From assembly GCF_030160635.1 (NCBI RefSeq), contig NZ_BSOS01000058.1, forward strand, positions 1 through 39,489: DNA of 39,489 nucleotides, written 5' to 3'. This DNA is from Acidocella aquatica. Lineage in GTDB: Bacteria; Pseudomonadota; Alphaproteobacteria; Acetobacterales; Acetobacteraceae. Positions 302 through 20,362 of the stretch are shown in pieces. The position numbers were made by a program, and so were the translations under genes. Every line of letters starts with the position of its first letter. The stretch's first letter is position 1. The notes beneath the pieces were generated by a model. That model worked only from the letters and a program-made list of their open reading frames with translations, did not search any database and was not told the origin of the DNA.

Positions 302-1261
302 TTAAATCGCTTGTGGTGCAAAATCACTCGGTGCCACCGGCATGACGCCTTGCAGAAGCGCCATCGATTTCCCAAGTCCTTCCAAACTGTTCAAGAGCAC
401 ATCTTCATGCTCAACCGACAGCCACCCGTCATAGCCGGCCATCTTCAGCCTGTAGCAAAACTGCCGCCACCACTCCTCGCCATGTCCGAAGCCCAGCGTA
501 ATATACGACCAGCTTCGCCCCGGAATATCGATGAGGCTGCCGTTCTCCAGAAGTGATGTGGTCGCCTGAACAGGCGCGTTAAGCAGCGTATCCTTGGCAT
601 GCACATGATAGATCGCCGCACCCAGCGCCTCCGCCGCGGCGAGCGGATCAGCGCCCATCCAGAAAAGATGCGATGGATCGAGGTTCGCGCCCACAACCGG
701 GCCAACCGCCTTGCGCAATTTCAGGAGCGCCGGCACATTATAGACGCACTGATTGCCATGAAGCTCCAGGGCGATGCGCTCCACGCCATGCGCCTTCGCC
801 AGGGCCACGATATCACTCCAGAACGGCAACAGCCTGTCTTCCCACTGATAACGCAAAATCTCCTGCGTCTCTGGCGGCCAGGATGCAACCACCCAGTTCG
901 GCAACTTGTCCCCGGCACAACCGGCGGGCAATCCTGACATCGTGCAGACTGTCTTGATGCCCATGCCGCCGGCCACGCGAATCGTATCCTTCAGGCATTC
1001 AGCCTGCTTGGGATCGGTTGGATGAAGCGGATTTCCATTGGCGTTCAGGCTGATGACATCCAATCCGCGGCTGCGGAAGGCGTTGAGGAAGTTGCTTCGG
1101 GCCTCGGCGCTTTTCTTTATCGCGGCCATATCAAAATGCGGCGCCGTCGACCAGCCGCCAGTGTTCACCTCAACCCCCGAGGCGCCCATTCGCACCGCGC
1201 TGTCAAGCACCTCTTCAAACTTCATTCCACCGAGACTATCGGAGACAAAACCAAGCTTCAC
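302..1261 (-). CDS. Sugar phosphate isomerase/epimerase family protein (xylose-isomerase-like TIM barrel)
   Basis: The protein has 319 residues starting MKLGFVSDSLGG and shows the AP-endonuclease-2/xylose-isomerase-like TIM barrel pattern. Metal-site style segments are ALELHGNQ, GANLDPSHLFW (Asp/His), YHVHAKD and LSVEHED in the usual order. Family members interconvert or dehydrate ketoses and inososes, for example IolE, IolI and IolH. The start is GTG at 1261, with GGAGG 8 bases upstream; no in-frame ATG is better placed. The gene lies 15 bases after the Gfo/Idh/MocA gene, a pairing common in inositol and sugar catabolic operons. It could be an inosose isomerase (IolI-like), but I cannot fix the substrate. 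Confidence 0.8.
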   Translation of the reverse strand: MKLGFVSDSLGGMKFEEVLDSAVRMGASGVEVNTGGWSTAPHFDMAAIKKSAEARSNFLNAFRSRGLDVISLNANGNPLHPTDPKQAECLKDTIRVAGGMGIKTVCTMSGLPAGCAGDKLPNWVVASWPPETQEILRYQWEDRLLPFWSDIVALAKAHGVERIALELHGNQCVYNVPALLKLRKAVGPVVGANLDPSHLFWMGADPLAAAEALGAAIYHVHAKDTLLNAPVQATTSLLENGSLIDIPGRSWSYITLGFGHGEEWWRQFCYRLKMAGYDGWLSVEHEDVLLNSLEGLGKSMALLQGVMPVAPSDFAPQAI

Positions 1262-1276: not shown

Positions 1277-2284
1277 TTAACGGTAAAGGGCGGGTTTATC
1301 CGCCATGTGAACATTGACGCGCTGACGCGCCGCAAGAGCCTGCACACCCGCCTGCGCAACCGCTGTGGCGCAATAACCATCCCAGGCATTGGCGCCGATT
1401 TCCGAAGGCACGCCGGTTTCGATTGATTTCAACCACGCCTTGTTCTGAACCCGATACGCTTCGGCGAAGCGCGGCCGCCAGTCAGCCGGGTAACGTTCAG
1501 CCGCCTGCAAGCGCGCATTCAGTTTTGAATGAACTGGCGCATTAAGGAAAACCGACCCGTGTTCACCAATCAGCTCGCCACGCACGTCGTAGCCATAACC
1601 GGCATTGTTGTTGACCTCAATCGTAACAAGGTGCCCGCCCGTGGTCTCGAGCACGATCACAACCGGCATGCCGGTTTTGGTGGTATCAACGCCGGCAGGC
1701 TGGAACACCGAAATCGACGCATAGTCCGTATCGAGCACAAAGCGCGCCACATCGAATTCATGGGGAGCGGAATTCGTGATTCCCATGTAACCTTCAAAAT
1801 TCGCAGGCGCTTCCACGTTGCGGTGAAAATTATGCATCATCACCGCGCCGCCGATGCGCCCCTCCGCCAGCGTTGCCTTCATCTCGGTATACGATGGGTC
1901 GAACCGCCGCATGAACCCGACCTGGAGCAGCCGGCGCCCCAGCTTTGTTTCAGCCTCGATGACTTTCAGGCAATCCTCGACGTTCGGCGCCAGCGGCTTC
2001 TCGCAAAGCACCGGCTTGCCCGCCTCAAGAGCGGCGATCGCCAAGGCGGCGTGCGTTTGGTCCGGGCTCGCGATCAGAACCGCGTCGACATCGGCCCGGG
2101 CGATAACGGCCAGCGGATCGCTCGCCACATGCCTGGCGCCGCAAGCCTCGGCGACCGCCGCCGCGCGTTTCTCGGAGGCATCGCAAACGACCTGCAAAAC
2201 GGCGCCGGGAATGTCGCCGGACATGATCCGCGCATGATCAGCCCCCATGACGCCCGCACCGAGAATCGCAAGCCGAACACTCAT
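1277..2284 (-). CDS. Gfo/Idh/MocA family oxidoreductase (inositol-dehydrogenase-like)
   Basis: This 335-residue NAD(P)-dependent sugar/inositol dehydrogenase has the N-terminal Rossmann motif GAGVMGADHA and the catalytic-lysine motif CEKP near residue 95, followed by the alpha/beta GFO_IDH_MocA C-terminal domain. In IolG-type enzymes the catalytic pair is D-x3-H. Here the segment reads NSAPHEFD, so the His is kept but the Asp position holds Asn. It is therefore likely to have a different substrate or altered activity compared with the two IolG-like proteins in this window. It is the first gene of a short operon with the isomerase downstream, behind its own promoter region. Other inositol stereoisomers or rhizopine-like compounds are possible substrates; this is inference. 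Confidence 0.85.
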   Translation of the reverse strand: MSVRLAILGAGVMGADHARIMSGDIPGAVLQVVCDASEKRAAAVAEACGARHVASDPLAVIARADVDAVLIASPDQTHAALAIAALEAGKPVLCEKPLAPNVEDCLKVIEAETKLGRRLLQVGFMRRFDPSYTEMKATLAEGRIGGAVMMHNFHRNVEAPANFEGYMGITNSAPHEFDVARFVLDTDYASISVFQPAGVDTTKTGMPVVIVLETTGGHLVTIEVNNNAGYGYDVRGELIGEHGSVFLNAPVHSKLNARLQAAERYPADWRPRFAEAYRVQNKAWLKSIETGVPSEIGANAWDGYCATAVAQAGVQALAARQRVNVHMADKPALYR

Positions 2285-2606: not shown

Positions 2607-3638
2607 TTATTTTTCCATATCCCGAAACCCGGCTCCGGAATCTCCCACGATCCGGGAGGCCAGATCCGCCACTTTCATGGCGCGCATGGCTTCCCGCGCG
2701 CCGGGCACCTGCAGCGCCTCGCCGCTGGCCAGGCGGACAAAGGCATCGGCCTGCGCAACGAAGGCATCCGAAAAACGGTCGGGGAAGGCCTCGCCACGCT
2801 TGCCGTCCGGGGCCATGTTGGGCACCGCGATTGTGGTCAAGCCCTCCGCCGTGAGGCATTGCAGCACTGGATGCCCTGTTCCGGGGTTATGCAGCCACAG
2901 TGACCCCTTGGTGCCGCGAATCTCGGCCCGCGCATCGAAGCCGAATTTTGCGAAACGGGTCACGGTGAGAATCGCCAGCACTCCATCCTGCATCACCAGC
3001 GTCAGGGCGCCGGTGTCGGTATCGCCGATTTCGCCGATCTCCGGGTCCACCTGTGCCGAACTTGCGGCAAACACCGCTTGCGGCTCGCGCTCGAGCAGCC
3101 AGCACGCCACATCGATATCATGGATCAGCATGTCGCGGATGATGAAGCCCGAGCTGCGCAGAAAACTGGCCGGCGGCGCGTTCATATCGCCATTATGCAA
3201 AACCATCTGGATAGGCCGCCCAATGGCGCCGGCTTCCAATAGTTCCTTCATTTTTGCGAGCGCCGGGTCGAAGCGCCGGTTGAGCCCGATCATCAGCTTC
3301 ACCCCCGCCTTGCCGGCCGCGGCCACGGCCTGCGCCGCGCGGCCGAGATCAAGATCAATCGGCTTCTCGCAAAAAATATGCTTGCCCGCGGCGGCTGCCT
3401 GCTCGATCAACGCCGCATGCGTATCCGTCGCGGTGGCGATCAACACGGCATCCAGGGCGGGATCCGCCAGCGCCGCCGCCACCGGCACGGCCTGGGCGCC
3501 ATGCAGAGCCGCCAGTTCCGCCGCCCGCTCAGGGATGGCGTCTGACACATAACGGAGTGTCGCGGCGGGGTGTTCGGCGATGAGACGGGCATGCATGGCG
3601 CCGATGCGGCCAGCCCCGAAGAGTGCAATTTCAGCCAT
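2607..3638 (-). CDS. Inositol 2-dehydrogenase-like Gfo/Idh/MocA oxidoreductase (second IolG-like copy)
   Basis: This 343-residue protein has a Rossmann motif (FGAGRIGAMHA), a CEKP motif with the catalytic Lys, GLNRRFDP, and the complete catalytic stretch RDMLIHDIDVACWLL, in which D-x3-H matches the Asp/His pair of IolG. It closely resembles the plus-strand IolG at 16,338 in architecture and would oxidise myo-inositol or an isomer to the 2-keto compound with NAD+. It is the last gene of the minus-strand iol operon and starts 2 bases after the dehydratase stop. Having two IolG-like enzymes suggests isomer specificity (myo versus scyllo or chiro), which is inferred. Confidence 0.87.
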   Translation of the reverse strand: MAEIALFGAGRIGAMHARLIAEHPAATLRYVSDAIPERAAELAALHGAQAVPVAAALADPALDAVLIATATDTHAALIEQAAAAGKHIFCEKPIDLDLGRAAQAVAAAGKAGVKLMIGLNRRFDPALAKMKELLEAGAIGRPIQMVLHNGDMNAPPASFLRSSGFIIRDMLIHDIDVACWLLEREPQAVFAASSAQVDPEIGEIGDTDTGALTLVMQDGVLAILTVTRFAKFGFDARAEIRGTKGSLWLHNPGTGHPVLQCLTAEGLTTIAVPNMAPDGKRGEAFPDRFSDAFVAQADAFVRLASGEALQVPGAREAMRAMKVADLASRIVGDSGAGFRDMEK

Positions 3639-3640
3639 GA

Positions 3641-5371
3641 TCAGTGAATCTCCGGTTCGGGCACGGGCTCGCCATGCGCGGTTTCTAAAAAGTCGAAGTC
3701 GCAGCCTTCATCGGCCTGGCGCACATGCTGGGTATAGAGGGCGCCGAAGCCGCGCTGATAATGCGGCGGCGGCGCTACCCAGGCGGCACGGCGGGCTTCC
3801 AGCTCGGCATCGCTCACGCACAGCGCAATCCGCCGCGCCTCCACATCCAGCTCAATGATGTCTCCATCACGCACGAAGGCAAGCGGTCCGCCAACCCGGC
3901 TCTCCGGGCAGACATGCAGCACGCAGGCGCCGTAGCTGGTGCCCGACATGCGGGCATCGGAGATCCGCACCATGTCGCGCACGCCTTGTGCCAGAAGTTT
4001 TTTGGGGATTGGCAGCTGCCCCCATTCGGGCATGCCCGGCGCGCCGATGGGCCCGGCATCCTGGAGCACCAGCACGGAATCCGCGCTCACCTCCAGCGCG
4101 GGATCGTCGATGCGCGCTTCCATGTCGTTATAATTCTTGAACACAACCGCGGGGCCACGGTGTTTCAGCAGCCGCGCCTCTGCGGCGCCGGGTTTGATGA
4201 CAGCGCCGCGCGGGGCAAGATTGCCGGTGAGCACGGCCAGCCCGCCCGAGGCCCAGACCGGGTTGTCCAAGGGGCGGATGACATCCTCGATATACACGTC
4301 CGCGCCCTCGATATTCTGCCCGATGGTGGCGCCGTTCACTGTCGGGCAATCAAGATGCAGGTGGCCGCGCAGCCTGTTCAACAGCGCCCTGGTGCCGCCG
4401 GCATAGTAGAAATCCTCCATGAGGAAGCGGCCGGTGGGGCGGATATCGGCCAGCACCGGGATTGTGCGGCTCAGCCGGTCAAAGGCTTCCAGCTCCAGAT
4501 TGATCCCGGCGCGCCGCGCCAGGGCGATGATGTGGACGATGGCGTTGGTCGAACCCGAAAGTGCCAGCGCCGTGATGATGGCGTTTTCGAACGAGCCAAG
4601 CGAGAGAATGTCGGAGGGTTTCAGATCGTCCCAGACCATCTCGACGATGCGCCGCCCGGTATCCGAGGCGAGGCGGGAATGGTTGGCATCAGGCGCCGGG
4701 ATGGAGGAGCCGCCGGGCAGCACGAACCCCAGCGCCTCGGCCAGCGTCATCATGGTGGCGGCGGTGCCCATGGTCATGCAGGTGCCGGCGGAGCGGGCGA
4801 TGCCGTCCTCCAGCTCGCCCCAGGCCTCGTCGCTCAGATTACCGGCGCGCCGCTCCGCCCAGTGCTTCCATACATCCGAGCCAGAGCCAAGCACCTTGCC
4901 GCGCCAGTTGCCGCGCAGCATCGGCCCGGCGGGGAAATAGATCGCGGGGAGATTCATCGAGATCGCGCCCATCAGCAGGCCAGGCGTGGTCTTGTCACAG
5001 CCGCCCATCAGCACCACGCCATCGATCGGGTGGCCGCGCAGCAGCTCCTCCGCCTCCATGGCAAGGAAATTACGGTAGAGCATCGTCGTCGGCTTCACGA
5101 AAGGCTCGCCCAGGCTCATCGCCGGCAGCACCACGGGGAAGCCGCCGGCCTGCCAGATGCCGCGCTTCACCTCTTCCACGCGCTGCGGAAAATGGCTGTG
5201 GCAGGAGTTCATGTCCGACCAGGTGTTCAGGATGCCGATCACCGGCTTGCCTTCGAAATCGCGGCGCGAGAAGCCCATCTGCTTGGTGCGCGAGCGGTGG
5301 CCGAAGGCGCGCAGGGTATCCACGCCATACCAACGGTGGCTGCGCAGCTCTTCATAGGTTTTTTTGGTCAT
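3641..5371 (-). CDS. IlvD/Edd family dehydratase (L-arabinonate/sugar-acid dehydratase type)
   Basis: This 576-residue Fe-S dehydratase carries three cysteine motifs of the IlvD/Edd family: NSCHSHF, GGCDKTTPG and AGTCMTMGTA. The opening, LRSHRWYGVDTLRAFGHRSR, is typical of the pentonate/hexonate branch (L-arabinonate, xylonate, galactonate) rather than branched-chain amino-acid IlvD. It would dehydrate an aldonate to the 2-keto-3-deoxy acid in the cytoplasm. I chose the ATG at 5371: it lies 4 bases after the upstream aldolase stop, and the longer reading to 5461 would overlap that gene and has no family similarity. Lactonase, dehydrogenase and aldolase neighbours form a matching pathway. The exact sugar is unknown. 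Confidence 0.87.
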   Translation of the reverse strand: MTKKTYEELRSHRWYGVDTLRAFGHRSRTKQMGFSRRDFEGKPVIGILNTWSDMNSCHSHFPQRVEEVKRGIWQAGGFPVVLPAMSLGEPFVKPTTMLYRNFLAMEAEELLRGHPIDGVVLMGGCDKTTPGLLMGAISMNLPAIYFPAGPMLRGNWRGKVLGSGSDVWKHWAERRAGNLSDEAWGELEDGIARSAGTCMTMGTAATMMTLAEALGFVLPGGSSIPAPDANHSRLASDTGRRIVEMVWDDLKPSDILSLGSFENAIITALALSGSTNAIVHIIALARRAGINLELEAFDRLSRTIPVLADIRPTGRFLMEDFYYAGGTRALLNRLRGHLHLDCPTVNGATIGQNIEGADVYIEDVIRPLDNPVWASGGLAVLTGNLAPRGAVIKPGAAEARLLKHRGPAVVFKNYNDMEARIDDPALEVSADSVLVLQDAGPIGAPGMPEWGQLPIPKKLLAQGVRDMVRISDARMSGTSYGACVLHVCPESRVGGPLAFVRDGDIIELDVEARRIALCVSDAELEARRAAWVAPPPHYQRGFGALYTQHVRQADEGCDFDFLETAHGEPVPEPEIH

Positions 5372-5375
5372 GGTC

Positions 5376-6155
5376 TCAGTATCCGTTGCTGGGGGCATCA
5401 AGCGGGGTGGCGCGGAAGGCGCCGACCGCGGCGGCGGCACCGGCGGCCATGAAACGCGCATCGGAGCCGATCGTCACGAAATCAAAACCCAGGGCGGCCA
5501 TGCGCGCGGCATATTCCGGCGTGGCGTTATGGATGCCGGCATACACGCCGTGATGCCTGGCCCGCGCCAGCACATGGTGAACCGCGGCGATAACGCGCTC
5601 ATCCACCGGATCAAACCGCGGTGTGGCGCCCAGCGCCAGCGCGAGATCCGCCGGGCCGATATAAATCGCATCCAGCCCCGGCGTGGCGAGAATGGCGTCC
5701 AGATTGTCCAGCGCGGCCTGCGTCTCGATCATGGCGAAGCCGGTGACGAGCTCATTGGCCTTGCTCCCGTAATCGCCCCCATGCGCGAGCAGCGCGCGGA
5801 TGGGGCCGAAGCTGCGCTGCCCCAATGGCGGATAGCGCAGGCAGGAGACGAAATCCGCGGCATCCGCGGCGCTGTTGATCATCGGGCAGATGATGCCCAG
5901 CGCTCCGGCGTCGAGCATCTTCATGATGACCCCCGGCTCGCGCCAGGGCACGCGCACAACGGGGATGACGGGCCTGGTGCTGATGGCGGTGAGCATGCGT
6001 ACCGCGGCGAGATAATCCGTGACGCCATGCTGCATGTCGATGGTCAGGCTATCCCACCCCTGATGCGCCATCGTCTCGGCCGAGAAACTGTCTGGAATTG
6101 CCAGCCAGCCATTGAGGATTTTCTCCCCGGCCCGCCATTTTTGCTTGAGCGACAT
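5376..6155 (-). CDS. HpcH/HpaI family aldolase (2-keto-3-deoxy sugar-acid aldolase type)
   Basis: This class II pyruvate aldolase of 259 residues has the expected metal/catalytic series: DMQHG (His about 44), the VPVVRVPW region with Arg about 70, a MIET segment contributing the metal Glu, and IGPADLA contributing the metal Asp. Relatives include HpcH/HpaI, KDR aldolase YfaU and 2-dehydro-3-deoxyglucarate aldolase GarL. They split 2-keto-3-deoxy acids into pyruvate plus an aldehyde. The ATG at 6155 follows a GAGGGGG ribosome site; the longer upstream reading (to 6251) overlaps the dehydrogenase gene and is rejected. It sits directly upstream of the IlvD/Edd dehydratase, whose product would be its substrate. 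Confidence 0.87.
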   Translation of the reverse strand: MSLKQKWRAGEKILNGWLAIPDSFSAETMAHQGWDSLTIDMQHGVTDYLAAVRMLTAISTRPVIPVVRVPWREPGVIMKMLDAGALGIICPMINSAADAADFVSCLRYPPLGQRSFGPIRALLAHGGDYGSKANELVTGFAMIETQAALDNLDAILATPGLDAIYIGPADLALALGATPRFDPVDERVIAAVHHVLARARHHGVYAGIHNATPEYAARMAALGFDFVTIGSDARFMAAGAAAAVGAFRATPLDAPSNGY

Positions 6156-6178
6156 TTTGCCCCCTCTCCCGCCCGCCG

Positions 6179-7201
6179 CTAAATGGCCGCGAGATTTAAT
6201 TGGTCCAGCGGACGCCCCGGAATGCTGCGCGCGCCGTGCCGCGCATCCCACTCCGCCTGCACCTGCTCCAGCACGCGCATCACGGGCAGCACGGAGCGCC
6301 CCGTCACCAGCGGTTCGCGGCCGCTGTTCAGCGCATCGATGAAATCACGGGCGATGGCCCATGCGTTCTCATGCTCACTCACCGCAGATTCGCTTCCGGC
6401 GCCGGTTGTTATCGTGGAGGTGAGTTCGTCGAGCCGGTAACTCTCCTGGCTGGTCACCACCAGCGTATCATAAATCCGCTCGCGGGCGTAGTAGGAACCT
6501 GTTGCGAGAATGCTCTGGTCATCATGCGTCTCGATCAGCACCGCCACTTCCATCGGCGTGCCGGTATGAGGGTCGATGCCTGGCATGAAGCTCTGCACGC
6601 GGCGGATGCGCGCCGCCCCCGCCGCGGCATCGCCCTTGCCTGCGAGCCACAGCCCGAAATCCAGCAGATGGGTCGTGTGGTGCCACAGAATATTGTCGAT
6701 CCAGTTGCGGCGGATGCCGGTGGCGCCGATATTCACCAGCCGGTGGATGAAAAAGCGCCCATGAACATGCCGCACATTCTCTTCGCCCGCCTGGATGCGC
6801 GCAAGCATCGCGCGCCGCTCCGGGCGGAAACGCATGGGGTGCGACACGGCGAGCATCACCCCGGCCGCCTCGGCCGCATGCACCACCGCCTCCGATGCCG
6901 CGAAAGTCATGCCGATGGGGATCTCCACCAGCACCGCCTTGCCGGCCTTGATGACCTCCATCGCCATCGCGGCATGCGACTCGCTGGGGCCGGCGATGAT
7001 CACGGCATCCACCGCCGGGTCATTCACTGCCTCGATCATGTTTATGCCGGCATGGGCGAAGCCGTATTCGGTGGCGAATGCCTGCACCTGCGGCAGGTCG
7101 CGCCCGACCACGCTGTGCAGCCGCACGCCTGGATGGCCGCGCAGGGCCTCGGCATGCCAGATGCCCATCATTCCGTGGCCGATCAGACAGATATTTTTCA
7201 T
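6179..7201 (-). CDS. Gfo/Idh/MocA family oxidoreductase of the LigC-like (hemiacetal dehydrogenase) branch
   Basis: This 340-residue protein has the Rossmann motif GHGMMGIWHA, but VEIP replaces the usual CEKP. It also has HPMRFRPER and the stretch NWIDNILWHHTTHLLDF. The VEIP motif and the W-x-D-x-x-L-W-H-H segment resemble my recollection of LigC, the 4-carboxy-2-hydroxymuconate-6-semialdehyde dehydrogenase that oxidises a cyclic hemiacetal to a lactone. That resemblance is from memory, not an alignment. In this operon it starts in an ATGA overlap with the lactonase stop, so a sugar-hemiacetal dehydrogenase feeding that lactonase is the natural inference. No aromatic ring-fission genes adjoin it, so a true LigC role is unlikely. 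Confidence 0.8.
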   Translation of the reverse strand: MKNICLIGHGMMGIWHAEALRGHPGVRLHSVVGRDLPQVQAFATEYGFAHAGINMIEAVNDPAVDAVIIAGPSESHAAMAMEVIKAGKAVLVEIPIGMTFAASEAVVHAAEAAGVMLAVSHPMRFRPERRAMLARIQAGEENVRHVHGRFFIHRLVNIGATGIRRNWIDNILWHHTTHLLDFGLWLAGKGDAAAGAARIRRVQSFMPGIDPHTGTPMEVAVLIETHDDQSILATGSYYARERIYDTLVVTSQESYRLDELTSTITTGAGSESAVSEHENAWAIARDFIDALNSGREPLVTGRSVLPVMRVLEQVQAEWDARHGARSIPGRPLDQLNLAAI

Positions 7202-8094
7202 TCTACGGGCTCCGTGGTTGGCAGGCGGGCCATTGGGAAAGCGGGGATGGGTACACCGGGCGCCTCGAGGCGCAGGGCGAAAATTCCGCCCGAGAGCGGG
7301 GTGGCGTTGAGGCGCGCGGGCGCCACATGGTGGCGGGCGGAGGTGAGAAACAGCGTGCGCATGTCCGCGCCGCCGAAGCAGGGCATGGTTGGCGCGGCGC
7401 AGGGCAGCGCGATATGGCGCACGCGCGCGCCCTCCTCCGTGTAGGCGTTCAACACCCCGGCCGAGATGCCAGCACTCCAGTACAGCCCGGCCCTATCGGT
7501 GGCGCCGCCATCGGGGCGGCCATCCTCCTCGCCAGGGGTGGCGATGATCCGCTTGTTGCTGAATGCCCCTTCCGCGTAGTCGTAGCGGCAAAGCTGCTGC
7601 CCCTTGCTGTCGGAATGGAACACGCGCCGGCCATCAGCCGACCAGGCCAGCCCATTGGAGACGATCAGCCCCTCCAGCACACGGGCGGTGGCGCCATCCT
7701 GGTCAAGCCGGTAGAGCGCTCCGCAGGGCCGGGAGAGCGTCGCCTCGTCCATGGTGCCCACGAAGAAACGCCCATCGGGCGAGACCTTACCATCGTTATA
7801 GCGATTGCCGGGCACATCGCCCTCGGGATGGGCAATGAAGCGCAGCGCGCCGGTGCGCGGCGCGAAATGGTGGATGCCGCCGCGCAGGGCGACGAGCAAC
7901 CCGCCGTCATCGGCCAGTGCCGCGCAGCCGATGGTGGCGGGCATCGGCCAATCGTGCCGCGCGCCGCTGGCCAGGTCCAGCCGGTGCAGGCGGGGGGCGA
8001 GGATATCCACCCAGTAGAGCGCCTGCTCGGCGGCATGCCAGAGCGGGCTTTCGCCCAGCCCCGCCTGCGCGTCGAGAATGCAGGTGATCTCCAT
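7198..8094 (-). CDS. SMP-30/gluconolactonase/LRE family protein
   Basis: This 298-residue six-bladed beta-propeller lactonase shows the metal-site landmarks of the family: LGESPLW with the first Glu, RYNDGKVSPDGRF with Asn, SNGLAWS with Asn, and a PDGG-x-x-D loop. SMP-30/XylC/AraB-type enzymes hydrolyse aldonolactones to aldonates. It overlaps the downstream dehydrogenase by 4 bases and begins 16 bases after the mmsA stop, so it is translated within the operon. Together with its neighbours it supplies the lactone-hydrolysis step of a non-phosphorylative sugar route. The actual lactone is not known. Confidence 0.87.
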   Translation of the reverse strand: MEITCILDAQAGLGESPLWHAAEQALYWVDILAPRLHRLDLASGARHDWPMPATIGCAALADDGGLLVALRGGIHHFAPRTGALRFIAHPEGDVPGNRYNDGKVSPDGRFFVGTMDEATLSRPCGALYRLDQDGATARVLEGLIVSNGLAWSADGRRVFHSDSKGQQLCRYDYAEGAFSNKRIIATPGEEDGRPDGGATDRAGLYWSAGISAGVLNAYTEEGARVRHIALPCAAPTMPCFGGADMRTLFLTSARHHVAPARLNATPLSGGIFALRLEAPGVPIPAFPMARLPTTEPVE

Positions 8095-8110: not shown

Positions 8111-9604
8111 TCAGCGCATCGTCGGCATGGCGAACTCGGCGCCCTTGCGGATGCCGGCCGGCCAGCGCGTGGTCACGGTTTTCAGCCGCGTGTAGAAGCG
8201 CACACCCTCGCGGCCATGGATGGCATGGTCACCGAAGATGGAACGCTTCCAGCCGCCAAAGGAATGGAACGCCATCGGCACCGGAATGGGCACGTTCACG
8301 CCGACCATGCCGGCCAGCACCCCGGTTGAGAAGGCGCGGGCGGAATCGCCATCAGCCGTGTAGATGACAGCGCCGTTGCCGAACTCATGCGCGTTGACCA
8401 GGGCCAGCGCCTCGGCAAAACTCGCGCTGCGGACAACGCTCAGCACCGGGCCGAAAATCTCTTCCTTGTAGATGGTCATGTCCGGGGTGACATGATCGAA
8501 CAGCGTCGGGCCGGTGAAATAGCCACCCTCGTTGCCCTGCAGCTTCAGGCCGCGGCCATCGAGCACCAGCGTGGCGCCCTCCGCCTCGCCCTTGGCGATG
8601 TAGGATTCCACCTTCGCCTGATGCGCGCCGGTGACGAGCGGGCCCATCTCGGCCTCCTGATCGGTGCCCGGCCCGATCTTGAGCGCGCGGGCGCGCTCGG
8701 CGATGCGCGCCACCAAAGGCTCGGCGATGGGGCCGACCGGCACCGCCACCGAGACCGCCATGCAGCGCTCACCGGCGGAGCCATAGGCCGCGCCCATCAA
8801 CGCATCCACCGCTTGCTCCAGGTCGGCGTCGGGCATGATGACCAGATGGTTCTTCGCCCCGCCCAGCGCCTGCACGCGCTTGCCCTGCGCCGTGGCGGTG
8901 GTGAACACATATTCTGCAATCGGGGTGGAGCCGACAAAACTCACCGCGACGACGCGCTTGTCGTGCAGGAGCTGGTCCACCACGTCCTTGTCGCCGTTGA
9001 TGACATTGAACACGCCGGCCGGCGCACCGGCCTGGCTCAGCAACTCGGCCATGCGCAGCGCCGCCGACGGCACTTTCTCCGAAATCTTCAGGATGAAGCT
9101 GTTGCCGCAGGCCAGCGCCACCGGGAACATCCAGAGCGGCACCATGGCCGGGAAGTTGAACGGCGTAATGCCCACGCATACGCCCAGCGATTGGCGCACG
9201 GCGTGGCTATCGACATTGGTGCCGACATTCTCGCTGTAGTCGCCTTTCAAAAGCTCGGGGATGCCGCAGGCGAATTCAACAACCTCGATGCCACGCGTGA
9301 CCTCGCCGCGCGCATCCGAGATCACCTTGCCGTGCTCGGCGCTGATCAGCGCCGCCAGCTCGTCGGCGTGCTGCTCCAGCAAATCCTTGAAACGGAACAT
9401 CACCCGCGCGCGGCGCAGCGGCGGTGTCGCGGCCCAGCCGGGGAACGCGGCGGCGGCGGCTGCGATGGCGGCTTCCACCTCATCGGGCGTGGCGACGGAC
9501 ACGGCAGCGCCCTGCGCCCCGGTGGCGGGGTTGAAGACCGGCAAGGTGCGCGGGCCTGAACCGGTGAACGGCGCGCCGTTAATGTAATGATTAAGAATTT
9601 TCAT
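8111..9604 (-). CDS. mmsA: CoA-acylating methylmalonate-semialdehyde dehydrogenase (MmsA/IolA)
   Basis: At 497 residues this is a full-length ALDH-superfamily enzyme of the MmsA branch. It begins [11 protein letters not shown] and has [15 protein letters not shown], the NAD-binding [11 protein letters not shown], and the nucleophile motif GSAGERCMA with Cys about 285. In the inositol pathway this enzyme turns malonate semialdehyde into acetyl-CoA, CO2 and NADH; it also handles methylmalonate semialdehyde from valine. The ATG at 9604 has a GGAG site. It lies 18 bases after the iolE stop. It could also remove an aldehyde from the sugar-acid branch, though that is speculative. Confidence 0.93.
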
Positions 9605-9622: not shown

Positions 9623-10543
9623 TCAGGAAACAGGAACGGGGAGTGGCGCGGCGATTTCGAATCCGGCCGCGCGGACCATTGCGGAGAGATTGGCGTAGCC
9701 AAGCCGGGCATAGGTGAGCGGATGGGCGCGGGCGGGGTCCTGCTCGGCCTCCACCACCATCCAGCCGTCATCGTAGCCGCCCGCCTTCAACGCCGCGAGA
9801 ACGGCGGGGAAATCCACCCCGCCGTCGCCCGGCACGGTAAACACCCCGGCGATGACCGCCTCGAGGAAGCTCCAGTCCTGCGCCTTGGCCACGGCCATCA
9901 GCTCCAGCCGGACATCCTTGCAATGCACATGATGGATGCGCGCGGCGTAGCGCGTGGCAAGCGCCACCGGGTCGGCGCCGGCGAAGGTGGCGTGGCCGGC
10001 ATCGAGCAGCAGGCCGACATCGGCGCTGGTCTCGGCCATCAGCCGGTGGATCTCGGCCTCGGTCTCGATGACCGTGCCCATGTGGTGATGCACCACGAGA
10101 CGCAGCCCTTGCTCGCGCACATGCCGGGCCAAAGCCGAGAGCCTAGCTGTGAATTCAGGCCAGGCGGCTTGCGGCATCACCGGGCGGCGGCTGAGCGGCA
10201 CATCGCGCTGGCCATGGATGCAGCCGCTGACCTCAGCGTAAATGAGCACCTGCGCGCCATTTGCCTTCAGTAATTCCAGGTGCGGGGTCATCGCCTCGAT
10301 TTCGGCGTCCACATCGCGGCTCAGCAGCTCGCCGCTATACCAGCCGGAAACATGGCGCAGCCCGTGCGCCGCCAGCACGGCCGCCAGGGCCCTGGCCTCG
10401 CGCGGGAATTTATTGCCCAGCTCGATGCCCTCGAACCCCGCTTCGCGGGCCTCGGTGAGGCATTGTTCCAGCGGCGTGGCGCCGCCCAGTTCGGGCAGAT
10501 CGTCATTGCTCCAGGCAATCGGGTTGGTGCCAAGATGAATCAT
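9623..10543 (-). CDS. iolE: Myo-inosose-2 dehydratase (IolE)
   Basis: This 306-residue xylose-isomerase-like TIM barrel begins IHLGTNPIAWSNDD, a hallmark of IolE. It continues with FEGIELGNKFPR, LIYAEVSGCIHGQ, VVHHHMGTVIET, LLLDAGHATFAG and HHVHCKD, in which metal-binding Glu/Asp/His residues can be read. It removes water from 2-keto-myo-inositol (scyllo-inosose) to give 3D-(3,5/4)-trihydroxycyclohexane-1,2-dione, the substrate of the adjacent IolD. Length and motif order match the family. It lies 19 bases after iolD on the same strand. Confidence 0.94.
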   Translation of the reverse strand: MIHLGTNPIAWSNDDLPELGGATPLEQCLTEAREAGFEGIELGNKFPREARALAAVLAAHGLRHVSGWYSGELLSRDVDAEIEAMTPHLELLKANGAQVLIYAEVSGCIHGQRDVPLSRRPVMPQAAWPEFTARLSALARHVREQGLRLVVHHHMGTVIETEAEIHRLMAETSADVGLLLDAGHATFAGADPVALATRYAARIHHVHCKDVRLELMAVAKAQDWSFLEAVIAGVFTVPGDGGVDFPAVLAALKAGGYDDGWMVVEAEQDPARAHPLTYARLGYANLSAMVRAAGFEIAAPLPVPVS

Positions 10544-10562: not shown

Positions 10563-12437
10563 TTAGACAAGACGCTGGTGTGCGCGGGCCTGCTCATAGG
10601 TGGCGCGGGCTTCATTCACCTCGCCGCGCAGGGAAACTTCCGGCACCGCGACATCCCACCACGCGCCGCCGCCGGAAGTGATGTAGGGGTCGGTGTCAAT
10701 GACGATCACACTGGTGCGCGGCGCGGTTTTGGCGGCGGCCAGGGCGGCTTCCAGCCCGGCGATGCCGCTCACCTTGCACGAGAGCGCGCCGAGGCTCGCG
10801 GCGTGGGCCGCGAAATCGACCGGCACTTGCGCCTCATGCCGGGAGTCGGCCAGCAGATTGTTGAACGGGGCGCCCCCGGTGCCCATTTGCAGCCGGTTGA
10901 TGCAGCCATAGCCGCGATTATCCAGCACCAGAATGGTGAGTTTGAGCCCGAGCATCACGGAGACCGCGATCTCGGAATTCAGCATCAGATACGAGCCGTC
11001 GCCCACCATCACATAAACATCGCGCTCCGGATGGGCGAGCTTCACGCCCAGCCCGCCGGCGATCTCGTAGCCCATGCAGGAGAAACCATATTCCAGGTGA
11101 TAGGAGCGGGAATTTTCAGCGCGCCAGAGCTTATGCAGCTCGCCCGGCAGACCACCGGCGGCGCAGACCACGGTGGCATCCGCTCCGGCCTGGCGATTGA
11201 CGGCGCCAACCACCTGCGCATCAGAGGGCAGCGCCGCCGCGCTGGCGGCCGTGACGGCGTTTTCCTGCGCGCGCCAATCGGCGATCAGCGTGGCGGCACG
11301 GGCGGTCCAGGCGGCATCGGCCCGCCAGCCGGTCAATGCGGCGGTGAGGCCGGCCAAGCCGCGCGCGGCATCGGCCACCAGCGGCATGCCACCGTGCTTG
11401 GCGGCATCAAAGGCCGCCACGTTCAGATGCACGATACGTAAATCGGGATTGGCGAAGAGCGCGCGCGAGCCGGTGGTGAAATCCTGCAGGCGGGTGCCGA
11501 CGGCAAGAATCACGTCGGCTTGCGCCGCCAGGGCATTGGCGGCACTGGTGCCGGTGACGCCGAGGGCGCCCATGTTTTGGGGATGCGCCCAGTTCAGGCT
11601 GCCCTTGCCCGCCTGCGTCTCGCCCACCGGCACGCCATGGCGGGCGGCGAACGCGGCCAGCGCATCCTCCGCCCCGGCATAGCGCACGCCGCCTCCGGCG
11701 ATGATGAATGGATTCCTGGCGCCGCGCAGAGCCTCCACGGCACGCGCCAGCTCGGTTTCGTCAGCACCCGGGCGGCGGATATAATGCACGCGGCGGGCAA
11801 AGAAAGCGGCGGGAAAATCAGCCGCCTCGGCCTGCACATCCTGCGCCATGGCCAGCGTCACCGGGCCGCACAGCACAGGGTCGGTCAGCACCTCAAGCGC
11901 GCGCGGCAGCGCGGCGAGAAGCTGTTCGGGCCGCGTGATCCGGTCAAAATAACGCGATACCGGACGGAAGCAGTCATTGGCGGTGACCGTCGCGTCGGCG
12001 AAATCCTCAACCTGCTGCAAGACGGGATCAGGGCGGCGCGAGGCGAACACATCGCCCGGGAGGAAGAGCACCGGCAGCCGGTTCACATGCGCCAGCGCCG
12101 CGGCGGTGACCATGTTGAGCGCGCCCGGCCCGATGGAACTGGTGCAGACCATCATCCGCCGGCGGGCATGGGCCTTGGCGTAGGCAATGGCGGCATGCGC
12201 CATCGCCTGCTCGTTATGAGCCCGGTAGGTGGGCAGGACATCACGCGCGGCATGCAGGGCCTCGCCCAGCCCGGCGACGTTGCCATGGCCAAAAATCGCC
12301 CAGACGCCACCGAACAGCGGCACTTCGGCGCCATCCTGTTCGATGAACTGCGCGCCAATGTAGCGCACCACCGCCTGCGCGGCGGTCAGGCGCAATGTGC
12401 TGGCCGCAGATGACCGGGCATTCAGATGATCTGTCAT
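10563..12437 (-). CDS. iolD: 3D-(3,5/4)-trihydroxycyclohexane-1,2-dione acylhydrolase (IolD)
   Basis: This thiamine-diphosphate enzyme has 624 residues. After the N-terminal RLTAAQAVVRYIGAQF it has the Pyr domain (FGGVWAIFGHGNVAGLG), a central domain beginning NPFIIAGGGVRYAG, and a C-terminal PP domain with the ThDP/Mg motif MVGDGSYLMLNSEIA and VLDNRGYGCINRLQ. It opens the ring to form 5-deoxy-glucuronate. I chose the ATG at 12,437 because GGAGAGG precedes it; the reading to 12,527 would begin inside the operator region. It is the first gene of the long minus-strand operon and is divergent from the RpiR-type regulator. Confidence 0.94.
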   Translation of the reverse strand: MTDHLNARSSAASTLRLTAAQAVVRYIGAQFIEQDGAEVPLFGGVWAIFGHGNVAGLGEALHAARDVLPTYRAHNEQAMAHAAIAYAKAHARRRMMVCTSSIGPGALNMVTAAALAHVNRLPVLFLPGDVFASRRPDPVLQQVEDFADATVTANDCFRPVSRYFDRITRPEQLLAALPRALEVLTDPVLCGPVTLAMAQDVQAEAADFPAAFFARRVHYIRRPGADETELARAVEALRGARNPFIIAGGGVRYAGAEDALAAFAARHGVPVGETQAGKGSLNWAHPQNMGALGVTGTSAANALAAQADVILAVGTRLQDFTTGSRALFANPDLRIVHLNVAAFDAAKHGGMPLVADAARGLAGLTAALTGWRADAAWTARAATLIADWRAQENAVTAASAAALPSDAQVVGAVNRQAGADATVVCAAGGLPGELHKLWRAENSRSYHLEYGFSCMGYEIAGGLGVKLAHPERDVYVMVGDGSYLMLNSEIAVSVMLGLKLTILVLDNRGYGCINRLQMGTGGAPFNNLLADSRHEAQVPVDFAAHAASLGALSCKVSGIAGLEAALAAAKTAPRTSVIVIDTDPYITSGGGAWWDVAVPEVSLRGEVNEARATYEQARAHQRLV

Positions 12438-12596
12438 TGATTCCTCTCCGCTGTCCCGGTCTTGCCTGCCGGTCGGCAAAATTATGAAACAACAATTCCA
12501 TTTAAATGGCAATAGTGGAATTTGCATTCCGGCAAATGAAATTTTCCGCCAAAGTTCGGCCTATATATGGAAGGAAAATTCTGGTGTTATATAAAG
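12438..12596. promoter_or_regulatory. iolD / iolR-like divergent control region with GGAA-N6-TTCC operators
   Basis: The 159-base intergenic region contains GGAA-TTTGCA-TTCC at 12,517-12,530, an exact match to the GGAA-N6-TTCC palindrome reported for Sinorhizobium meliloti IolR. One-mismatch copies lie at 12,486-12,499 (GAAA-CAACAA-TTCC) and 12,569-12,582 (GGAA-GGAAAA-TTCT). Their starts are 31 and 52 bases apart, close to whole helical turns (about 3 and 5), so dimers could bind on one face. A perfect 12-base palindrome, CCATTTAAATGG, sits at 12,498-12,509. No single -35/-10 pair stands out on either strand. Confidence 0.7.
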
Positions 12597-13496
12597 ATGT
12601 CAGCTACCCATGCCGCCATGACCACTCCCAACCCAAGCCAGGGCACACTGGCAGACTCAATCCCCCGCACGTTTGAAGCCTTGCGCAACCATGTCATCGA
12701 ACGCCACGGCATGTTGCCCAAGCGGCTGGCGCAGGTGGCGAAATTCGCCCTCGACCACCCCGACGAGATGGCGCTGAACACTGTCGCGGAACTCTCGGCG
12801 GCGGCGGGCGTGCAGCCCTCGGCACTCGTGCGTTTCGCCCAAAGTCTCGGCTATTCGGGGTTCTCCGAACTCCAGGGCGTGTTCCGCTCGCGGTTGCGCG
12901 ACCGCTGGCCCGATTATCAGGAACGCCTGACCAAGATACAGAACGAAACCGGCGGCGATGCTGATTCAAGCTCGGTTCTGGGCCGTTTCGTCGAAACCTC
13001 GATGCGCTCTCTCGCCCGTCTGCCCGAGAGCATCTCCGGCGAGGCGTTTGACGCGGCGGTATCGCTGCTGGCCAGGGCGCGCACGATCTATATTCTCGGT
13101 CAGCGGCGCGTCTTCCCGGTGGCGGCCTATCTTTCCTACATGTTCGGCAAGCTGGAGATGCAGCATGTGCTGCTGGATAATTTCGGCAGCATGATCGACA
13201 TTCAGGCCGGCAGCATGCGCGCGAACGATGTGCTTCTGGTCATCACCTTTACGCCCTATACGCCGGTGACTGTGGAGATCGCGAACCAGGCAGCGGCACG
13301 GGGGGTGCCACTCGTCGCCATCACCGACTCGGTGTTCTCGCCCATCGCCAGCCTGACCGGGGCGCGGCTTGAGGTCGTGGAGAGCGATCTTGGCTCGTTC
13401 CGTTGTCTCACCGCGACGTTAACGCTGGCCATGGGCCTCGCGGTCGTCAGCGCCGAGCGGCGCCGCACCGTTGGCGAGTCACCCTCAAATAGCTGA
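12597..13496 (+). CDS. MurR/RpiR family transcriptional regulator (IolR-like)
   Basis: The protein has about 299 residues. An N-terminal HTH_6 domain (RLAQVAKFALDHPDEMALNT through AGVQPSALVRFAQSLGYSGF, about residues 40-95) is followed by a SIS sugar-phosphate-binding domain (TIYILGQRRVFPVAAYLSY, VLLVITFTPYTPVTVEIA, VPLVAITDSVFSPIA). RpiR-type IolR proteins repress iol operons and respond to a phosphorylated pathway intermediate. Its position divergent from iolD, with GGAA-N6-TTCC sites between, supports that role and autoregulation. The start is uncertain: ATG at 12,597 is chosen, and 12,567 and 12,618 are alternatives with no better ribosome site. Confidence 0.87.
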   Translation: MSATHAAMTTPNPSQGTLADSIPRTFEALRNHVIERHGMLPKRLAQVAKFALDHPDEMALNTVAELSAAAGVQPSALVRFAQSLGYSGFSELQGVFRSRLRDRWPDYQERLTKIQNETGGDADSSSVLGRFVETSMRSLARLPESISGEAFDAAVSLLARARTIYILGQRRVFPVAAYLSYMFGKLEMQHVLLDNFGSMIDIQAGSMRANDVLLVITFTPYTPVTVEIANQAAARGVPLVAITDSVFSPIASLTGARLEVVESDLGSFRCLTATLTLAMGLAVVSAERRRTVGESPSNS

Positions 13497-13570: not shown

Positions 13571-14371
13571 TCATCGCGCTATCGCGAAACACGGGTCGGT
13601 GCTGATCTGCCAGCGCCGCTCCGGCCCGGCCATGATGTTCAGATAATAAAGATCGCATCCCGGCGCGGCGGAAACCGGATGATAGCCGCGCGGCACCAGC
13701 ACGGCGGCGCCGTCGGTCAGCGGCAGCGCCTCATCCAACCCGGCATGGTCATAGATCCGCTGGAAACCAAACCCCCCGGGGCGGCGGAAGCGGTGGTAAT
13801 AAATTTCTTCCAGCGCCGTCTCATCCGGCCCTGCCGTGTCGTGCTTATGTGGCGGAAAGGATGACCAATGCCCGCCGGGCGTGATCACCTCCACCAGCAG
13901 CATGGCGGCGGCTGGCTCGGTTTCAGGCAACAGGTCGCGGATAAAACGTTCATTATCCCCCGCTCCGCGCGTGGAACAGCGCACAGCGCCGGGCATGATG
14001 ACGCGGGGCGGCGGCGGCGCAGCGCCCGGCGGCACCGCGGCATGGCAGAGCGCCAACTCGCAGGCGCTCGCAGGGGTGAATCGCCACGCCGCGCCGGGAG
14101 GCAGATAGACGGAATGGCCCGGTCCCTCGAACGGGCTGCGCCGCCCTCCGATTTCGGCGTGCAGGTCCGCCGCCTCGATCAACCCCGTGCCGGAGAGCAA
14201 AACCAGGCCTGTTTCAAGCCTGCCGGTGGAGCGGCTCACGGCCTGACCAGGCTGCAAGGCAAATGCCTCCAGCCCGATATGGCCAAGCCCATCGCGCTGC
14301 CCCGGCAAACCCGCGGTCAGGCAACGGCCTTGTGCATCCGGCTGGTGCGCGCGGCGCAAATAGAGACTCAC
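13571..14371 (-). CDS. iolB: 5-deoxy-glucuronate isomerase (IolB)
   Basis: This cupin protein of about 266 residues shows LPPGAAWRFTPA, RDLLPETEPA, the cupin metal motif FPPHKHD followed by EEIYYHRFRRPGGFGFQ, and GYHPVSAAPGCDLYYLN with the late His. These match IolB, which isomerises 5-deoxy-glucuronate to 5-keto-2-deoxygluconate (2-deoxy-5-keto-D-gluconate), the substrate of the upstream IolC. I chose GTG at 14,371, which overlaps the iolC stop as GTGA and has GAGGGGAGG just upstream. The longer ATG reading to 14,398 lies inside iolC and is less likely. Length agrees with the family. Confidence 0.92.
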   Translation of the reverse strand: MSLYLRRAHQPDAQGRCLTAGLPGQRDGLGHIGLEAFALQPGQAVSRSTGRLETGLVLLSGTGLIEAADLHAEIGGRRSPFEGPGHSVYLPPGAAWRFTPASACELALCHAAVPPGAAPPPPRVIMPGAVRCSTRGAGDNERFIRDLLPETEPAAAMLLVEVITPGGHWSSFPPHKHDTAGPDETALEEIYYHRFRRPGGFGFQRIYDHAGLDEALPLTDGAAVLVPRGYHPVSAAPGCDLYYLNIMAGPERRWQISTDPCFAIAR

Positions 14372-16206
14372 GCAGCCTCCCCTCTCAGGCGATCCCACAG
14401 CCCGGAGAAACGCGCGAAACGCGCCTGCAACATGGCCTGTACCTCATCGCCCGCCGCGCGGCCGGCAAAATATGCCGCTGCCGGCTCCGCCCAGATCGCC
14501 CGGCCGATGGCAAACCCAGCCACCAGCCCGTACGCCGCCGCTTCGCTCAACCCGGCCTCCAAAATCTCCGCCTCATGGTCCCCGCCCAGCACCAGCACCC
14601 CCCGGCAAGCCGGATCCGCGGCCGGAATAAGCCCCTCCAGAACCGCCCATACCGGGTTTGGCTGCACCGGCAATTTCCACCAGTCCGGATGCAGGCCTAG
14701 CCGGTAGAAATGTTCGATCAACCGCGGCGCCGCCGTCTCGTCCATAACCCCCCCGCGCGGCGGCAGGATTTCCACCAGATATTCCCGTCCGGCGGCTACC
14801 GCCGCCTCCTGCAGACGCAGCAGCGCTTCATCCTGGGCGGCGCGCAATGCCGGTTCATCATCAGGGCCATAGGTCACCAGGCATTTCAAAGTCTCGGTGG
14901 CGGGCCAGGAGGCCAGGCCGCCACCCAGGTCAAGCCCGGCGGTGAACGCAAGCGGCCGGCTGCCCGGCTGCTCGACCGGGGCGGCGATCCATAGCCCATC
15001 CGCTTCGGCGCAACCGCGCGCGGGCCCGCCGTAAATATGGTCAAGCAGCAGACCATAGCCACGGCGCCCCCTGGCCTCAGCCGCCACGGCACGCAAGGCC
15101 AGGGCCTTGAAGGTGCCGATCTGTGCCGGGTGACGCGCAAGGGCCGCGAGCTGCGGCCGGTGGTCAATGGCCAGGGCCCGCAGCGTGGCGGGGGCGCGGC
15201 GGCGCGCGGTGAAGCGCTTGGCATCCGCCATGACAGGCGAGTCGAGCGGCGTGCCCGCCATGAACAACGCCACCTCCCGCGGCCCCGGATACGCATTGGC
15301 GCAAAGCAGCCGCCCGGCGGCGATGGCGCCACACGCCAGGGCGGTGGGCATCGCCGCCTCGGGCGACGCCCCACGCAGCCAACGGGAGAGAAAGCCTGCG
15401 AGGAATGCATCCCCCGCCCCCAGCGGATTGACCACCCGCACCGGCCAGGCGGGAAAATTTTGCCCGGTTTCAGGCCCCGCCGTAACGAGCGTGGCACCTT
15501 CCGCGCCGTGTTTTAAAATAAACAGCGCGTCTGAAACCTCACGCAGCCGCCGCATGGCCGTGAACGGATCAGGCGCCGCACCGGCCACGCACCACTCCTC
15601 GGCGGTGCCGCACACCAGGGCCGCGCCTTCCATCAACGCCGAAAGCCGAGCGGACACGAATGCGCGCTCGCCGCTGGTCCATAATTGCTCACGGAAATCA
15701 ATATCCAGCACCACCCGGGCGCCGGCGGCACGCGCAAGTGCCGCCGCGTGCAGGCTGGCTGCATATACTTCAGGGGTCGAGGCATGGGTGCCGGTGAGCA
15801 CCAGGGCGCGCGCCGAGGTAAGCAGGGAGGCATCGAGCATGCCGGCGCGCAGCCCCATGTCGGCGCAATTCTCGCGCCAGAAGTGCAGTTGCACGGCGCC
15901 GCCCGGGCCCACGCCGGCGATCGCCAGGGCTGTCGGCCGCTGCGTATCGCGCCGCACGCCGCGCGTCTCCACCCCGTCGGCGATGAATTGCGCGATGATC
16001 GCCTCGCCCAGCGGATCCGCGCCAACCGCGGTGATGATCGCGGCGCGCAGGCCCAGCCGCGCGCACCCCACCGCCACATTGGCCGGTGTGCCGCCCACCG
16101 ATTTCACAAAGCTGCCCATATCGGCCAGCCAGGTGCCGGTCTGCTGCCCATAAAGGTCCATCCCCGCCCGGCCCAACGTCACCACATCCAACGCCGGCTC
16201 CGGCAT
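14368..16206 (-). CDS. iolC: Bifunctional 5-dehydro-2-deoxygluconokinase / DUF2090 (IolC fusion)
   Basis: At about 612 residues this is roughly twice a plain IolC. The N-terminal half (about 1-320) is a PfkB/ribokinase-type kinase, beginning LDVVTLGRAGMDLYGQQ and containing the catalytic-base motif NPLGAGDAFLAGFLSRWL. The C-terminal half (about 330-612) is the DUF2090 TIM-barrel-like domain, including IDHRPQLAALA, GLLLDHIYG and LGGDHEAEILEAGL. Such fusions are commonly annotated as kinase plus 5-dehydro-2-deoxyphosphogluconate aldolase, which would replace the separate IolJ not found here. ATG at 16,206 has GAGGAGG 7 bases upstream; an overlapping GTG at 16,209 is the alternative. It is divergent from iolG. 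Confidence 0.92.
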   Translation of the reverse strand: MPEPALDVVTLGRAGMDLYGQQTGTWLADMGSFVKSVGGTPANVAVGCARLGLRAAIITAVGADPLGEAIIAQFIADGVETRGVRRDTQRPTALAIAGVGPGGAVQLHFWRENCADMGLRAGMLDASLLTSARALVLTGTHASTPEVYAASLHAAALARAAGARVVLDIDFREQLWTSGERAFVSARLSALMEGAALVCGTAEEWCVAGAAPDPFTAMRRLREVSDALFILKHGAEGATLVTAGPETGQNFPAWPVRVVNPLGAGDAFLAGFLSRWLRGASPEAAMPTALACGAIAAGRLLCANAYPGPREVALFMAGTPLDSPVMADAKRFTARRRAPATLRALAIDHRPQLAALARHPAQIGTFKALALRAVAAEARGRRGYGLLLDHIYGGPARGCAEADGLWIAAPVEQPGSRPLAFTAGLDLGGGLASWPATETLKCLVTYGPDDEPALRAAQDEALLRLQEAAVAAGREYLVEILPPRGGVMDETAAPRLIEHFYRLGLHPDWWKLPVQPNPVWAVLEGLIPAADPACRGVLVLGGDHEAEILEAGLSEAAAYGLVAGFAIGRAIWAEPAAAYFAGRAAGDEVQAMLQARFARFSGLWDRLRGEAA

Positions 16207-20266: not shown

Positions 20267-20287
20267 TTTCTATTTCCCGGCATGAGG

Positions 20288-20298: not shown

Positions 20299-20362
20299 AA
20301 ATATCCCGAATTTCTTCGGTGGCAAGCAGGCTGGTGATATAAGGCCGTTTGGAGGGTATATC

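Follow-up and report, generated by a model that had tools for sequence, protein, structure and literature searches.

The window analysed here is the whole of a 39,489-nucleotide contig of Acidocella aquatica (NZ_BSOS01000058.1 of assembly GCF_030160635.1, numbered C58 among the 137 contigs of a 4.03 Mb genome, G000), in which an operon for inositol catabolism (iol) holds four further genes, encoding an SMP-30 lactonase, a LigC-like dehydrogenase, an HpcH/HpaI aldolase and an IlvD/Edd sugar-acid dehydratase. Their order, their spacing, an operator motif and their co-occurrence with iolD give good support to the assignment of these four genes to the inositol system. As to their function, the reading towards which sequence comparison leans, by a modest degree, is that they act on 5-deoxyglucuronate, the product of IolD, and constitute a non-phosphorylative oxidative branch that would lead round IolB and IolC.

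The four genes lie within an eight-gene run on the minus strand, in the order iolD, iolE, mmsA, SMP-30, LigC-like, HpaI, IlvD/Edd and iolG1, with successive gaps of 19, 18, 16, -4, 23, 4 and 2 bases, computed from start codons that are termed likely where they were chosen by homology and spacing. The run is headed by iolD (10563..12437), which encodes the trihydroxycyclohexanedione (THcHDO) hydrolase that makes 5-deoxyglucuronate (TIGR04377, 941 bits, cut-off 715); a longer open reading frame (ORF) opens at 12527, and since the profile match begins at its residue 46, the start at 12437 is the likely one. Then follow iolE for inosose dehydratase (9623..10543; TIGR04379, 397 bits, cut-off 290) and mmsA/iolA for a CoA-acylating (methyl)malonate-semialdehyde dehydrogenase (8111..9604; TIGR01722, 688 bits, cut-off 448.5), and thereafter the genes in question: SMP-30 (7198..8094; PF08450, 260 bits), the LigC/PmdC-like gene (6179..7201; PF01408 and PF19858), the HpaI class II aldolase (5376..6155 within an ORF of 5376-6251; PF03328), and the dehydratase (3641..5371 within an ORF of 3641-5461; NF009559, 986 bits, cut-off 882). 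An inositol dehydrogenase-like gene of the Gfo/Idh/MocA family, iolG1 (2607..3638; TIGR04380, 295 bits, below the cut-off of 355), closes the run. The original prediction, made from the letters alone, had placed the four genes on one strand between mmsA and iolG1 and assigned them to the same four families, and the reading frames and profile matches bear out both statements; of its description of the junctions as 4-base overlaps or tiny gaps, the tiny gaps hold, at no more than 23 bases throughout, while a 4-base overlap occurs only once, between the SMP-30 and LigC-like genes. It laid no stress on the membership of iolD and iolE in the same run.

Within a sample of 37 Acidocella genomes, namely that of the window and 36 others, iolD exceeded its cut-off in five (G000, G010, G020, G022 and G024, the last being A. 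aminolytica 101 = DSM 11237), and precisely these five also had a LigC-like copy with an identity of 71% or above; below them, the best match in the 61 genomes searched reached 31%. The chance of such a coincidence of five in 37 would be 2.3e-6 if the genomes were independent, but they share ancestry and several are incomplete. SMP-30 orthologues of about 77-83% identity occur in G010, G020 and G022, and none was found in four iolD-less genomes of the genus that were checked (best match 47%); MmsA exceeded its cut-off in each of the ten genomes examined for it, and the presence of mmsA alone is thus uninformative. In four of the five genomes, the set borders directly on genes of iol type within one contig; in A. 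aminolytica, where the LigC-dehydratase pair lies at a contig end beside a porin gene and a 33-residue remnant of SMP-30, adjacency to iol genes is presumed. The window's order recurs in G020, split over contigs C44 (iolC, iolB, rpiR, iolD, iolE and the start of mmsA) and C21 (the end of mmsA, SMP-30, LigC, HpaI, dehydratase and iolG1). Because G020 keeps this order and G010, G022 and G024 hold variants of it, the arrangement is more than chance; mmsA, for its part, adjoins the set wherever SMP-30 is intact, in four genomes. Among the 37 genomes, the four genes did not appear as a separate sugar operon only incidentally adjacent to the iol genes, and the idea of a hybrid operon, in which additional genes travel with the iol genes, is upheld by co-occurrence, contig adjacency, tight spacing and an inositol-type operator upstream.

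The operator lies between iolD and a divergent gene for an RpiR/MurR-like regulator (12567..13496, plus strand; NCBIfam matches of the MurR/RpiR family at about 50 bits, under their cut-offs), where three GGAA-N6-TTCC-like sites occupy 12486..12582 on the plus strand, the one at 12517 being exact and those at 12486 and 12569 having one mismatch each. The corresponding gap of G020 repeats the pattern, with one exact copy and two more sites. According to PMC2597717, this motif sits upstream of inositol genes in Caulobacter and its relatives, and one copy is shown there by mutation to repress iolC. Terminator and promoter scans gave nothing above shuffles.

All five genomes possess a second type of locus, consisting of iolD, iolE and a short-chain dehydrogenase gene together with Gfo/Idh/MocA genes, a gene in divergent orientation that resembles those for semialdehyde dehydrogenases, and a paralogue of HpaI (48-54% identical to the window HpaI); a 2-hydroxyacid dehydrogenase gene follows HpaI wherever the locus was aligned. 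In G010 and G022, this second-type locus runs on, across a contig break, as mmsA, SMP-30, LigC and dehydratase, and a third locus carries iolD, iolC-like and iolB-like genes and an IolJ-like aldolase, the last judged by eye.

In the proposed branch, the LigC-like enzyme would oxidise the cyclic hemiacetal of 5-deoxy-D-glucuronate with NAD(P)+ to a lactone, and would thus be a lactone-forming 5-deoxyglucuronate dehydrogenase; SMP-30, as a putative 5-deoxyglucarolactone lactonase, would open the lactone to 5-deoxyglucarate (2,3,4-trihydroxyadipate); the IlvD/Edd enzyme, as a 5-deoxyglucarate dehydratase, would take water off C2-C3 to give 4-hydroxy-2-oxoadipate; and the HpaI enzyme, as a 4-hydroxy-2-oxoadipate aldolase, would cleave this to pyruvate and malonate semialdehyde, which the adjacent MmsA would convert to acetyl-CoA and CO2. 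The chemical fit is that the proposed aldolase product, malonate semialdehyde, is the substrate of the neighbouring MmsA. Beyond the RpiR-like gene, the window likewise encodes the classical route, with iolB for 5-deoxyglucuronate isomerase (13571..14398, minus strand; TIGR04378, 238 bits, cut-off 205), iolC for a fused kinase/aldolase (14368..16209, minus strand; NF047869, 450 bits, cut-off 600; kinase domain 291 bits, cut-off 300) that is assigned by homology only because both scores lie below the curated cut-offs, and iolG for inositol 2-dehydrogenase (16338..17339, plus strand; TIGR04380, 436 bits, cut-off 355). Both branches would end in malonate semialdehyde, with a common entry through IolG, IolE and IolD and a common exit through MmsA.

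Compared with the classical pathway (IolG-E-D-B-C-J-A), as described for the Caulobacter crescentus module in PMC2597717, the window shares iolD, iolE, mmsA/iolA, iolG, homologues of iolB and iolC, the RpiR-like regulator, the GGAA-N6-TTCC operator and the exit through malonate semialdehyde; it differs in having four further enzymes, through which 5-deoxyglucuronate could be converted with no need of IolB, IolJ or the kinase of IolC, and which would yield pyruvate in place of dihydroxyacetone phosphate (DHAP) beside malonate semialdehyde. Oxidative uronate pathways (uronate dehydrogenase, lactonase and a glucarate branch, or the oxidation of 4-deoxy-L-erythro-5-hexoseulose uronate (DEHU) in PMC8563752) are alike in that an aldehydo-acid is oxidised to a dicarboxylate before dehydration and cleavage, whereas the substrate proposed for the window is a 5-deoxyuronate from IolD and the enzymes are of other families. 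No description of an oxidative 5-deoxyglucuronate route was found in a literature search whose coverage left out most subscription journals; among the matches listed, no paper contained 5-deoxyglucarate or trihydroxyadipate, and none on Acidocella and inositol was visibly concerned with growth on inositol.

The best solved relative of the LigC-like dehydrogenase is PmdC, a 4-carboxy-2-hydroxymuconate-6-semialdehyde (CHMS) dehydrogenase (9azo; 129 bits over residues 4-196), with which it has in common an EIP at 93-95 and the pattern R165-x-W-x-D169-xxLW-H174-H175-xx-H178; D172, H177, H178 and H181 of PmdC align with its D169, H174, H175 and H178. Both EIP and RxWxDxxLWHHxxH recur in the four orthologues of the window protein and in 16 homologues at a greater distance, while EKP replaces EIP in the window's three IolG-type proteins. 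In PmdC, as reported in PMC11489326, mutating the three histidines costs 83-98% of the activity, and the substrate was modelled as a hemiacetal bearing two carboxylates. From these motifs, the LigC-like enzyme would be a dehydrogenase that forms a lactone from a cyclic hemiacetal carrying a carboxylate, a class of compound to which the IolD product 5-deoxyglucuronate, closing to a furanose, belongs. The resemblance to LigC and PmdC of protocatechuate 4,5-cleavage thus comprises EIP for EKP, the histidine motif and the expected hemiacetal-to-lactone chemistry; the significant phmmer match, however, is confined to residues 4-196, SMP-30 would here open the lactone, and the protein is not called a CHMS dehydrogenase because no linked protocatechuate genes were seen.

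The configuration of 5-deoxyglucarate at C2 and C3 matches that of L-arabinonate, D-xylonate and D-gluconate. Characterised IlvD/Edd aldonate dehydratases act on pentonates as well as hexonates, with strict demands at C2/C3 (PMC9795676), and the iol-linked dehydratases retain the cysteines of the cluster and the catalytic serine that the paper names, with 41 fixed differences from seven arabinonate-type copies, some of them flanking catalytic residues. The window HpaI protein reaches no specific aldolase cut-off: its nearest solved structure is the hydroxyketoacid aldolase 7o5i, and it scores 165 bits with TIGR02311 for 4-hydroxy-2-oxoheptanedioate aldolase (cut-off 368.8) and 137 bits with the GarL model (cut-off 406.75). 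In several families, an HpaI-type aldolase gene is followed by one for a D-2-hydroxyacid dehydrogenase, as at L191 (G243), L283 (G167), L288 (G387), L290 (G120) and L125 (G020), a pairing that points to hydroxypyruvate or some other 2-oxoacid as a possible product.

Alternatively, the set could be a Dahms-type (aldolase) pathway whose substrate is L-arabinose, D-xylose or a hexose and which the iol operon has taken up, the sugars co-occurring with inositol or sharing IolG-type dehydrogenases. The sequence of dehydrogenase, lactonase, IlvD/Edd dehydratase and class II aldolase is that of such pathways, the dehydratase passes the NCBIfam cut-off for L-arabinonate dehydratase, and IolG of Corynebacterium glutamicum is reported to oxidise D-xylose (PMC6475665), which is the nearest known link between an iol enzyme and sugar acids that was found. 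An aldose pathway is nevertheless unlikely. Elsewhere in all five genomes stands a second L-arabinonate dehydratase with 1040-1048 bits, versus 977-991 for the iol-linked copy, so that the arabinose gene of these genomes is not the iol-linked one; the two contexts of the other dehydratase that were inspected (contig C61 of G000 and C72 of G024) carry an aldehyde dehydrogenase (ALDH) gene and, by eye, a DapA-like gene. Moreover, the window dehydrogenase is of LigC type, with the CHMS dehydrogenase motif and without EKP, rather than a recognised aldose dehydrogenase: no sugar-dehydrogenase model of NCBIfam reached its cut-off, the list of solved structures at E<=1e-5 does not include the known L-arabinose dehydrogenases of Azospirillum, and the genes lie inside an iol run. 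A plain arabinose operon was rejected as first choice on account of the better-scoring dehydratase in each genome; some overlap of substrates may occur.

Still less likely is a pathway for a hexuronate such as D-glucuronate, which would pass through a lactone, D-glucarate and 2-keto-3-deoxyglucarate to pyruvate and tartronate semialdehyde. SMP-30 lactonases and HpaI/GarL-type aldolases would suit it, the GarL and 2-keto-3-deoxy-glucarate aldolase models match the HpaI protein below cut-off, and in the alphaproteobacterial genome G384, described below, a related dehydratase stands beside a GarL-like aldolase and, judged by eye, a GarR-like reductase. However, no gene of the run was recognised as one for a tartronate-semialdehyde reductase or for uronates, the adjoining mmsA is of use for malonate semialdehyde, and the window HpaI clade is set apart from the GarL-like copies. 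The substrates named in the original prediction, an inositol glycoside, an aldose or a hexuronate, therefore find no support, given the second and better-scoring L-arabinonate dehydratase in all five genomes and a LigC site of the carboxylated-hemiacetal type. Least likely is a branch that clears 5-deoxyuronates rejected by IolB and made by IolD paralogues from ring-opened scyllo- or chiro-inositol products, which would suit the several iolG-like paralogues of the window and the two iolD genes over cut-off in four of the five Acidocella genomes, but sits badly with A. aminolytica, where LigC and the dehydratase are kept with one iolD over cut-off.

To place the proposed 5-deoxyglucuronate branch in a wider frame, 385 genomes of the class were sampled with thresholds of E<=1e-200 for iolD and E<=1e-10 for iolB. 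The former was present in 56 genomes (60 places) and the latter in 37; 24 of the 56 had no credible iolB, 23 of them having no match and G269 a 92-residue piece with two stops, and five of these 24 genomes are less than 90% complete. The 60 places, comprising 57 fetched stretches, two others and the window, some of them cut by contig ends, were compared with expected counts that are rough densities. An HpaI-type aldolase stands round six of them (the window, contig C59 of G000, G051, G243, G385 and G106; five genomes of five families) versus about 0.2 expected, and an IlvD/Edd relative at four (the window, G190, G346 and a fragment in G382) versus about 0.4. LigC was found at three (the window, G164 and G384) and SMP-30 of at least 45% identity at two (the window and G384). 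Counting in favour of the branch is G384, a single contig of 5.9 Mb from another family, in which iolG, iolD, iolE, SMP-30 (61%) and LigC (48%) follow one another in one direction and no iolB was found at E<=1e-10; its HpaI copy (57-59%) lies about 84 kb from the iolD locus, and its 70% dehydratase copy, with an ORF split in two, stands at L273 (1929000-1947999) beside a GarL-like aldolase, with GarR-like and RraA-like genes by eye, which is likely a separate hexarate route. In G243, a single contig of 1.2 Mb, iolD is accompanied by a divergent semialdehyde dehydrogenase-like gene, HpaI, a 2-hydroxyacid dehydrogenase gene, iolE and an iolG-like gene.

A scan of the genome collection gave 18 LigC-like loci, four in Acidocella at 71-84% and 14 others at 44-54%; of the eight distant loci that were annotated, three (L050-L052) stand with iolE and iolD, and the other five showed no iolD. 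No SMP-30 or IlvD/Edd gene was recognised at L050-L052, which belong to metagenome-assembled genomes (MAGs) of a Telmatospirillum sp., of an Asaia-titled organism and of Rhodospirillaceae. Their iolE and iolD are divergent from an iolG-like and a short-chain dehydrogenase gene, after which come transporter-like genes (by eye, clearest in L050) and then a LigC-like gene of 47-49%; L050 is seemingly the same contig as C5 of G164.

Two associations with missing iolB were not relied on. The first concerns a 37-row dehydratase tree, which covers 24 of 45 matching genomes (25 top-scoring loci, G190 being dropped by an ORF filter): outside the well-supported arabinonate clade it holds copies of 14 iolB-less genomes and one iolB-bearing genome, and inside it those of one iolB-less and eight iolB-bearing genomes (Fisher 1e-4, by family 0.009). 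This comparison was made post hoc, and the copies lie away from iolD, several with a GarL-like aldolase. The second, in which 16 of 24 iolB-less versus 11 of 32 iolB-bearing genomes matched HpaI at E<=1e-40 (p=0.03), was set aside as weak and uncorrected for kinship.

Several observations weigh against the oxidative branch proposed here. G010 and G022 have no HpaI between LigC and the dehydratase and would have to rely on a 51% paralogue a few genes upstream, and an iolB match exists in four of the five Acidocella genomes (below cut-off in G010 and G022), which would make the branch mostly an addition and not a replacement. In A. aminolytica, it speaks for the branch that iolD, iolE, HpaI, LigC and the dehydratase are all present, with no iolB match at E<=0.001 and a best iolC match of 30% and 67 bits; its SMP-30, however, is the C-terminal remnant only (G024:C91:119313-119411, directly upstream of LigC), and the semialdehyde-dehydrogenase-like gene on contig C34 (L123, 13132-13535) is without residues 91-428, beside intact HpaI and 2-hydroxyacid dehydrogenase genes, so that the locus is partly decayed and spontaneous opening of the lactone would have to serve. 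As regards the operator, GGAA-N6-TTCC-like sites are not enriched across the window (20 versus 14.7 expected, with 12 of 100 shuffles reaching 20), and no exact copy was found in the scanned stretches of iolC/iolG, rpiR/iolB and the second-type loci. Outside the genus, G243, which lacks iolB and has iolD, iolE and HpaI, gave no dehydratase match at E<=1e-170, implying either a different route there or another role of HpaI; those dehydratases of iolB-less genomes that come near the iol type lie away from iolD, and several have a different aldolase, a GarL-like one, as their partner.

A more general proposal, which we advance tentatively and with less confidence than the branch itself, is that a non-phosphorylative inositol pathway is widespread in Alphaproteobacteria, in which 5-deoxyglucuronate would be oxidised and cleaved by LigC and SMP-30 or a semialdehyde dehydrogenase, by an IlvD/Edd dehydratase or a 2-hydroxyacid dehydrogenase, and by an HpaI-type aldolase, adding to IolB, IolC and IolJ and, in some lineages, fully replacing them; such a pathway would account for the 24 of 56 iolD genomes without credible iolB. 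Inositol use is usually read from iolB, iolC, iolD and iolE. For instance, a large survey demands three of these four genes and ascribes a missing fourth to incomplete assembly or frameshifts (PMC9430895), a rule that would misread part of the Alphaproteobacteria if an oxidative 5-deoxyglucuronate branch exists. In that event, a mid-pathway product of inositol would be burnt by oxidation rather than by the textbook ATP-using route, with no ATP spent on the kinase, extra NAD(P)H gained and pyruvate delivered, and estimates of flux and energy would change.

Of the remaining features of the window, a second iolG-like gene, iolG2 (1277..2284, minus strand; NF052679, 266 bits, below the cut-off of 540), begins 322 bases beyond iolG1 and is probably a unit separate from the eight-gene run; downstream lies a gene for an IolE/xylose-isomerase-like TIM barrel (302..1261, minus strand; PF01261). 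On the plus strand, a soluble di-iron monooxygenase set at 27193-31564 comprises two Phenol_Hydrox (PF02332) subunits and a 2Fe-2S/FAD reductase, and at 19847-22427 a fatty-acid desaturase domain protein is followed by a ring-hydroxylating alpha-subunit domain protein; homologues of the desaturase also lie close to the LigC loci of G010 and G022.

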